Positions 28,734 to 33,452 of a stretch of DNA of 48,646 bases are shown piece after piece. Under the pieces are notes generated by a model. The model had not been told where the DNA came from, searched no databases, and saw only the letters and a program-made list of their open reading frames with translations. The stretch is taken from contig PWKN01000125.1 in assembly GCA_003559735.1 (NCBI GenBank), positions 1-48,646 on the forward strand. The letters run 5' to 3'. The number at the start of each line of letters is the position of its first letter. The first letter of the stretch is position 1. Source of the DNA: Bacteroidales bacterium (lineage in GTDB: Bacteria > Bacteroidota > Bacteroidia > Bacteroidales > UBA7960). The position numbers were made by a program, and so were the translations under genes.

Positions 28734-28763
28734 TTTGGTTTTAAAATATTATTGCTATCTTTG
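28734..28763 (+). promoter_or_regulatory. Promoter of the L31 gene
   Basis: TTTG (28734-28737), 18 bases, then TATCTTTG (28756-28763): one of the best consensus promoters in the window, about 100 bases before the L31 start. Confidence 0.65.
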
Positions 28764-28789
28764 CAGTCCGAAAAAAAAATTGGAATGCA

Positions 28790-28832
28790 CCGTTGGAGGG
28801 ACCCAAAGTGCGTGTCGCACGGGTTAGAACGG
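28790..28832 (+). promoter_or_regulatory. Structured leader of the L31 mRNA
   Basis: Three nested stems: CCGTT (28790) with AACGG (28828), ACCC (28801) with GGGT (28821), and GTGCG (28808) with CGCAC (28816) closed by loop TGT. It lies between promoter and start codon, where self-regulating ribosomal protein leaders sit. There is no T-tract, so it is not an intrinsic terminator. Confidence 0.55.
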
Positions 28833-28866
28833 GGCAAAAAGACAAACATTAAAAACACGCAAGCTG

Positions 28867-29130
28867 ATGAGGAAAGATATCCATCCGGAGAATTACCGTT
28901 ACGTTGTCTTTAAAGACATGTCGAACGAGTACAGTTTCATTACCCGGTCTACTGCTACCAGTAAAGAGACCATCAAGTGGGAGGACGGGAATGAATACCC
29001 ACTGGTTAAGCTCGAGATCTCTCACACGTCGCATCCGTTCTATACCGGGAAACAGCAGCTGGTTGACACTGCCGGGCGTGTTGACAAGTTCAGGACAAAA
29101 TACCAGAAGCACCTGAAGAAAGACAAATAA
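28867..29130 (+). CDS. rpmE2: 50S ribosomal protein L31, type B
   Basis: An 87-residue L31 starting [20 protein letters not shown] and holding [21 protein letters not shown], the family signature. The N-terminus lacks the CxxC zinc site, so it is the zinc-free B form. It has its own promoter, structured leader and terminator. Confidence 0.96.
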
Positions 29131-29153
29131 TGGTTATTCGTTGAAAAAAGCAG

Positions 29154-29179
29154 AAAAGCCCTCCCATGAGGGCTTTTTT
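29154..29179 (+). terminator. Intrinsic terminator of the L31 gene
   Basis: AAAAGCCCTC, loop CCAT, GAGGGCTTTTTT: a tight stem with T-tract, 24 bases after the stop. Confidence 0.9.
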
Positions 29180-33328: not shown

Positions 33329-33336
33329 TAATTTTG
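33329..33336 (+). promoter_or_regulatory. -7 box of rpsA
   Basis: TAATTTTG, a full TAnnTTTG match, 135 bases before the S1 start, leaving a long leader. Confidence 0.5.
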
Positions 33337-33372
33337 CAGTCCCGTTTGCGGGCCCTGTACAGTTATTTTATT

Positions 33373-33452
33373 AACCAGGTGCACCGGAAGCATACGGTAC
33401 TTGCTGTTATTCAGTGACAAACGCTGGTTGAATGGCGGTCATCCGGTACACC
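33373..33452 (+). promoter_or_regulatory. Possible pseudoknotted leader of the S1 mRNA
   Basis: AACCA (33373) can pair with TGGTT (33425), and GGTGCACCGG (33378) with CCGGTACACC (33443), nine pairs with one mismatch. The two helices cross, as in a pseudoknot. A local hairpin ACCG/CGGT (33383/33395) would compete with the second. The leader lies just before the S1 start at 33472, where autoregulation of rpsA occurs in other phyla. Confidence 0.4.

Follow-up and report, generated by a model that had tools for sequence, protein, structure and literature searches.

Does the long leader in front of the L31 gene of an uncultured Bacteroidales bacterium hold a structure by which the ribosomal protein could regulate its own message? 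The locus lies in a 48,646-nucleotide stretch of DNA, referred to here as the window. An earlier note on this DNA had pointed to a compact, nested three-stem fold between a strong promoter and the L31 start codon, and had suggested that it might be a self-regulating leader. The reading that we tentatively put forward is a different one. The single-gene L31 leader of one uncultured Bacteroidales family may control L31 dosage post-transcriptionally, with the second of its hairpins kept, if at all, as a shape.

The L31 message of the window

The features of the message are all located on the forward strand.

28734..28763 (+): promoter of Bacteroidota type, TTTG at 28734-28737 and TATCTTTG at 28756-28763 (sequence and published consensus)
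28767..28784 (+): H1, a hairpin at the 5' end of the message (predicted fold; transcript start inferred and uncertain by about 2 nt)
28782..28793 (+): box, GGAATGCACCGT in the window and GGATTCAACAAA in most congeners (alignment A2), overlapping the 3' arm of H1
28786..28836 (+): H2, three nested stems enclosed by a TGC/GCA helix (predicted fold; not common to congeners)
28790-28794 with 28828-28832 (+): H2 stem 1, CCGTT with AACGG (sequence and predicted fold)
28801-28804 with 28821-28824 (+): H2 stem 2, ACCC with GGGT, plus the pair G28800-U28825 (sequence and predicted fold)
28808-28820 (+): H2 stem 3, GTGCG-TGT-CGCAC (sequence and predicted fold)
28837..28866 (+): A-rich translation start region, unpaired (sequence and fold; congener commonest-base share 0.75)
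28867..29130 (+): rpmE2, type B ribosomal protein L31 (NF002462, 133 bits)
29152..29179 (+): terminator-like hairpin with a T-run (pattern scan; shuffles also yield such sites, mean 1.4)

A promoter of the Bacteroidota type and the L31 start codon (28867) are found where the earlier note had implied, and the gene downstream of the stems is indeed a type B L31. The promoter follows the consensus TAnnTTTG / TTTG given for Bacteroidota in the available part of PMC7366714, and this portion of the leader region is well kept in congeners (mean commonest-base share 0.92 in an alignment of 19 leaders). The message probably holds one gene, because the terminator-like hairpin and T-run at 29152-29179 follow the coding region. 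rpmE2 is the sole L31 gene of its own genome (single match), and PF01197 has exactly one match in 91 of 98 related genomes and two matches in none.

At about 100 nt, the L31 leader of the window is long, since the median 5' UTR of Bacteroides thetaiotaomicron is 32 nt and only 13.5% of its messages exceed 100 nt, according to the same portion of PMC7366714. L31 leaders elsewhere in the Bacteroidota are mostly short, with 62 of the 67 named loci that have a promoter match measuring 63 nt or less.

Comparisons draw on 91 L31 places in the 98 related genomes, 70 of which were read as loci L001-L070; the 21 left out include three that are cut at contig ends (in G001, G035 and G060). A further set of 80 named loci contains 11 duplicates of these 70. 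The test for 5' hairpins described below uses 64 of the other 69, two having been dropped for want of a promoter match and three for being under 20 nt.

Three nested stems and their distribution

All three stems proposed in the earlier note are present before the L31 gene, and the minimum-energy fold holds every one of them. This predicted fold adds an outer helix between TGC (28786-28788) and GCA (28834-28836) and contains an asymmetric inner loop with 5 nt on one side and 2 nt on the other. The fold strength of H2 in the window is moderately beyond chance, for a site that was picked by eye. The segment 28783-28838 has a z of -2.52 (5 of 200 shuffles are as good) and the longer segment 28769-28880 has a z of -1.81 (12 of 200), while the whole leader of the window gives p 0.06 against shuffles.

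The conservation that a shared regulatory structure would entail is lacking. Both of the closest relatives, L002 and L003, encode an L31 that is 98% identical to that of the window, and neither has the stems: L002 carries a 90-nt leader with a hairpin of unrelated sequence, and L003 has a 40-nt leader with no hairpin. No convincing covariation is found in the three stems across 19 congener leaders. In this alignment the window stems are paired in 48.7% of cells versus 43.0% (sd 2.1) in shuffles, a value reached by 5 of 500; 11 of 500 shuffles attain their covariation score, and the middle helix is paired in 39.7% of cells. A small excess of pairing of this kind can arise from relatedness combined with a structure taken from one row. 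RNAalifold predicts zero pairs from the 19-congener alignment, and the consensus fold of 15 long congener leaders is empty.

The two outcomes that the earlier note had named as refuting, absent covariation and stems that close relatives lack, are both seen. A conserved three-stem, self-regulating L31 leader is rejected on these grounds: the stems are unshared with L002 and L003, they lack convincing covariation, and RNAalifold returns no structure. The wider notion of a non-random leader on the L31 message gains some ground from a 5' hairpin and box that the family conserves in association with L31, and from the unusually structured leaders of congeners.

A hairpin and box at the 5' end of the message

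In H1, the first bases of the message, GTCC, can pair with the beginning of the box, GGAT. The box has a mean commonest-base share of 0.77 in the congener alignment, compared to 0.35 for the columns of H2. By sequence, the box of the window is a diverged form of the GGATTCAACAAA found in congeners. A scan for rRNA mimicry, in which the box was compared with four 5S loci and their flanks, gave one match with 2 mismatches that is taken as incidental.

In a set of 18 leaders, comprising 16 congeners and two other members of the same family, the six pairs of H1 are formed in 82.4% of cells versus 77.6% in shuffles (reached by 7 of 500), and five standard pair types occur at one position. Sliding the alignment by +1 column retains a covariation score of 0.200 versus 0.244. 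In alignment A1 the row of the window is shifted by one column within H1, and for this reason it is counted there as mostly unpaired. Other genera of the family remake the hairpin with other letters, for example, CTCCCGAAAAATA/TATTTTTCGGGAG in L030, GTCCTGA/TCAGGAT in L021 and CCCTCA/TGAGGG in L024.

A shuffle test, in which the 5' arm is kept, the remainder is shuffled and the results are Fisher-combined, provides a measure of H1 across loci. H1 is weak in the window itself (p 0.33). With 45 nt and a 6-nt arm, the 19 congeners combine to a Fisher value of 0.0015 and 21 further family members to 3.1e-5; with 60 nt and an 8-nt arm, it is 0.006 for 19 congeners and 6.4e-7 for 22 others, the family set including L029 only under these latter settings. 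All of these values are too small, as related species are treated as independent. For L31 leaders, the Fisher value is about 1 both in the order's other families (27 of 30 loci) and in the 64 named Bacteroidota. Leaders of other genes yield 1 (L21, 18 leaders) and 0.58 (L19, 18 leaders), L215 being too short for an L19 leader.

A different arrangement is seen in genus g6 (L021, L022 and L025), where the box, GGGATTCAACA, lies within a second long hairpin and not directly after the 5' hairpin. This placement hints that the box itself, rather than its place, may be what is kept.

Association of the hairpin and box with L31

A pattern combining the promoter, the 5' arm and the box occurs once each in 8 of 21 congener genomes and never in a reversed control. 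Seven of the eight matches stop 56-70 nt upstream of the L31 start codon, and the eighth is located at a contig end. The exact pattern is missing from 13 congener genomes, that of the window included. Like r-protein leaders in general, this one resides in the 5' UTR of an r-protein gene and is tied to that gene (the pattern, in 7 of 8 cases). At the level of sequence comparison, the family conserves the 5' hairpin and the box next to it, and both go with L31.

A covariance model of the promoter, H1 and box portion, designated R1, has matches at E<=0.01 in 124 of 393 genomes of the order, many of them weak. Among 30 R1 loci that were fetched, 6 adjoin an L31 gene. The others, with genes named by eye in other Bacteroidales, include five with rpsL, two with rpmH and three with a tRNA downstream. 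Matches at these other genes are partly due to promoter likeness because R1 contains the promoter, and some of the starts also have CCC...GGG pairs. A second, weak R1 match is present in the window at 33329-33376 (20.7 bits, E 0.021).

The rpsL leaders L225, L239, L245, L246 and L247, again judged by eye and from other Bacteroidales, begin with an H1-like CAGTCC(C), A-run and GG(G). Such starts may represent a broader group of growth-gene hairpins located at the 5' end, and H1 may belong to this group. Within the genus, the 5'-end hairpin does not look general. Of 30 promoter-like sites in 460 kb, a single one carries such a hairpin at p<=0.05, and inspection of S12 leaders from the genus by eye finds such hairpins only sporadically.

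Hairpins at the extreme 5' end protect some long-lived bacterial messages from decay. H1 might likewise shield its message, with H2 holding the start region open as a spacer and with no binding of L31. The location of H1 at the inferred transcript start favors this explanation, as do the similar CCC...GGG starts seen by eye before rpsL and tRNA genes, which are unrelated to L31 binding. However, the box is tied to L31 within the genus, and the hairpins are not general there, being found at few promoter-like sites and in none to few of the L21 and L19 leaders. Simple protection of the 5' end is judged to be rather unlikely.

The second hairpin slot

The region occupied by H2 in the window forms a stable hairpin of unrelated sequence in most congener leaders; L003, L008 and L014 have none, and L013 has a small one. 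The mean z of whole-leader folds is -1.42 for L31 (n 19); the comparison genes give +0.19 (L21, n 18), -0.50 (L19, n 18) and +0.22 (S12, n 15). When only sequences after nt 30 are folded, congener L31 leaders have a mean z of -1.45, with p<0.05 in 8 of 18. The value of 0.11 obtained for the window in this calculation is not meaningful, because the cut at nt 30 runs through its own H2. In the rest of the family, the part beyond nt 30 shows no folding excess (mean z 0.14, n 21).

In L005, L152 and L018, the stem in the slot survives one compensatory exchange of G-C to A-U. This stem-preserving exchange, together with the folding excess among congeners, suggests that there is selection for some hairpin in the slot, and not for the particular one seen here. 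The H2 stems are the filling of this slot in the species that contributed the window.

H2 could instead be a chance fold in free spacer, with only the promoter, the box and the start region being of consequence. The low base conservation of the H2 columns, the congeners that dispense with the hairpin and the merely moderate rise of the window fold above shuffles are what such a neutral filler would produce. Neutrality is nevertheless unlikely given that most congeners have a stable hairpin in this place, with the excess after nt 30 given above, and that the exchange in L005, L152 and L018 preserves pairing.

Comparison with known L31 leaders

Five L31 leaders, each limited to one phylum, are described in the available part of Eckert and Weinberg 2020 (PMC7247131). 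None is from the Bacteroidota, as the earlier note had supposed, although the same portion of that paper lists leaders for L13, S4, S15 and S16 from Bacteroidia or Flavobacteria. The literature found on L31 or rpmE2 leaders, in which subscription journals are thinly covered, describes none for the Bacteroidota. Like the five leaders in that part of PMC7247131, the leader of the window has a hairpin directly before an L31 gene; unlike them, its stems lack convincing covariation and an Rfam match. No Rfam 15 family scores above its gathering threshold in the window or in 20 related loci, and nothing L31-like is matched in the window at E up to 10.

The S15-Flavobacteria leader (RF03161) matches 28756-28787 with 26.7 bits (E 0.075), well short of its gathering score of 46.5 bits. 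The aligned part consists of promoter and A-run, and the inner 36 positions of the model are skipped. This candidate is rejected because of its low score and the omission of its structured part, and a search of 15 related loci with RF03161 is empty at E up to 1.

A precedent exists in E. coli, where L31 represses its own rpmE message and the zinc-free L31p represses via an asymmetric stem-loop in the 5' UTR, as described in the available part of PMC9825181. The sequence of the stem in the rpmE leader can be exchanged if the structure is kept, according to the same part of this source. A stem-loop that is long and asymmetric lies in the L31 5' UTR in both cases, the one here being predicted, and this is a likeness of form only. 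In contrast to the two L31 genes and conserved 5' UTR covered in that part of PMC9825181, the bacterium studied here has a single L31, of type B, and its second hairpin varies between species.

Another known device is very improbable: Zur represses zinc-free L31 genes elsewhere among bacteria (PMC9825181, available part), but a Zur-controlled zinc-free paralogue is opposed by the absence of a second, zinc-type L31 (PF01197, 98 genomes), a transcription attenuator is opposed by the lack of a T-run after H2 and by a terminator scan that finds sites only after the gene (29152-29179), and a leader peptide is opposed by the upstream ATG at 28785, which is not kept in congeners.

Elements in related leaders

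Several other leaders carry elements of their own. The L31 leaders of genus g5 (L026, L030, L042, L045 and L046) keep a near-perfect palindrome, AAACAGGCCTGTTT, shortly before the start codon, and those of genus g6 have the related GGGCTGTTTAA. In L067, from one genome of another family, a tRNA-like sequence is located between the promoter and the L31 gene. A tRNA-like sequence with anticodon TTC (assigned by eye) also resides directly before the S20 gene in 19 of 19 loci (L160-L178), an arrangement that suggests that the two may be transcribed jointly. S12 leaders from the genus and family (L291-L316) contain a well-conserved AAAACGAAGTTTTTAC in most genus members and several other genera. 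This sequence might fold into a small hairpin with GAA as its loop and is a possible leader element of the S12 operon.

Possible control of L31 by its leader

Under the reading that we tentatively prefer, free L31 would bind the leader through the 5' hairpin and box, and perhaps through the second hairpin as a shape. Binding would lower either translation or the lifetime of the message. Because H2 stops 30 nt short of the start codon, repression would have to operate by blocked ribosome loading or by faster decay. Autogenous control of L31 by this leader is plausible and would resemble that of the E. coli rpmE leader. Several observations count against it: H1 is weak in the window, which also departs from the exact pattern; R1 has matches at other growth genes; L003, L008 and L014 lack H2; the rest of the family has no folding excess beyond nt 30; and most L31 leaders of Bacteroidota are short. 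A 5' end shielded with no L31 bound, or an H2 that is neutral, would fit the data nearly as well as control by L31, and the leader of the window is at most a candidate gene-control leader.

A bolder version of this proposal is improbable. It holds that this leader, the first for a Bacteroidota L31, is read by shape alone, combining a fixed 5' hairpin and box with a second hairpin that stays in its place before the start region although sister species have entirely different sequences for it.

Outside the Bacteroidota, leaders for L31 have arisen repeatedly in various phyla; the literature found describes none for the Bacteroidota. If the leader does not work in this way, it serves as a caution that a fold with the looks of a good leader can be confined to a single genome. 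If the proposal is true, the family would have made an invention of its own whose visible hairpin turns over between sister species, and discovery methods based on covariation would miss shape-only leaders of this kind.
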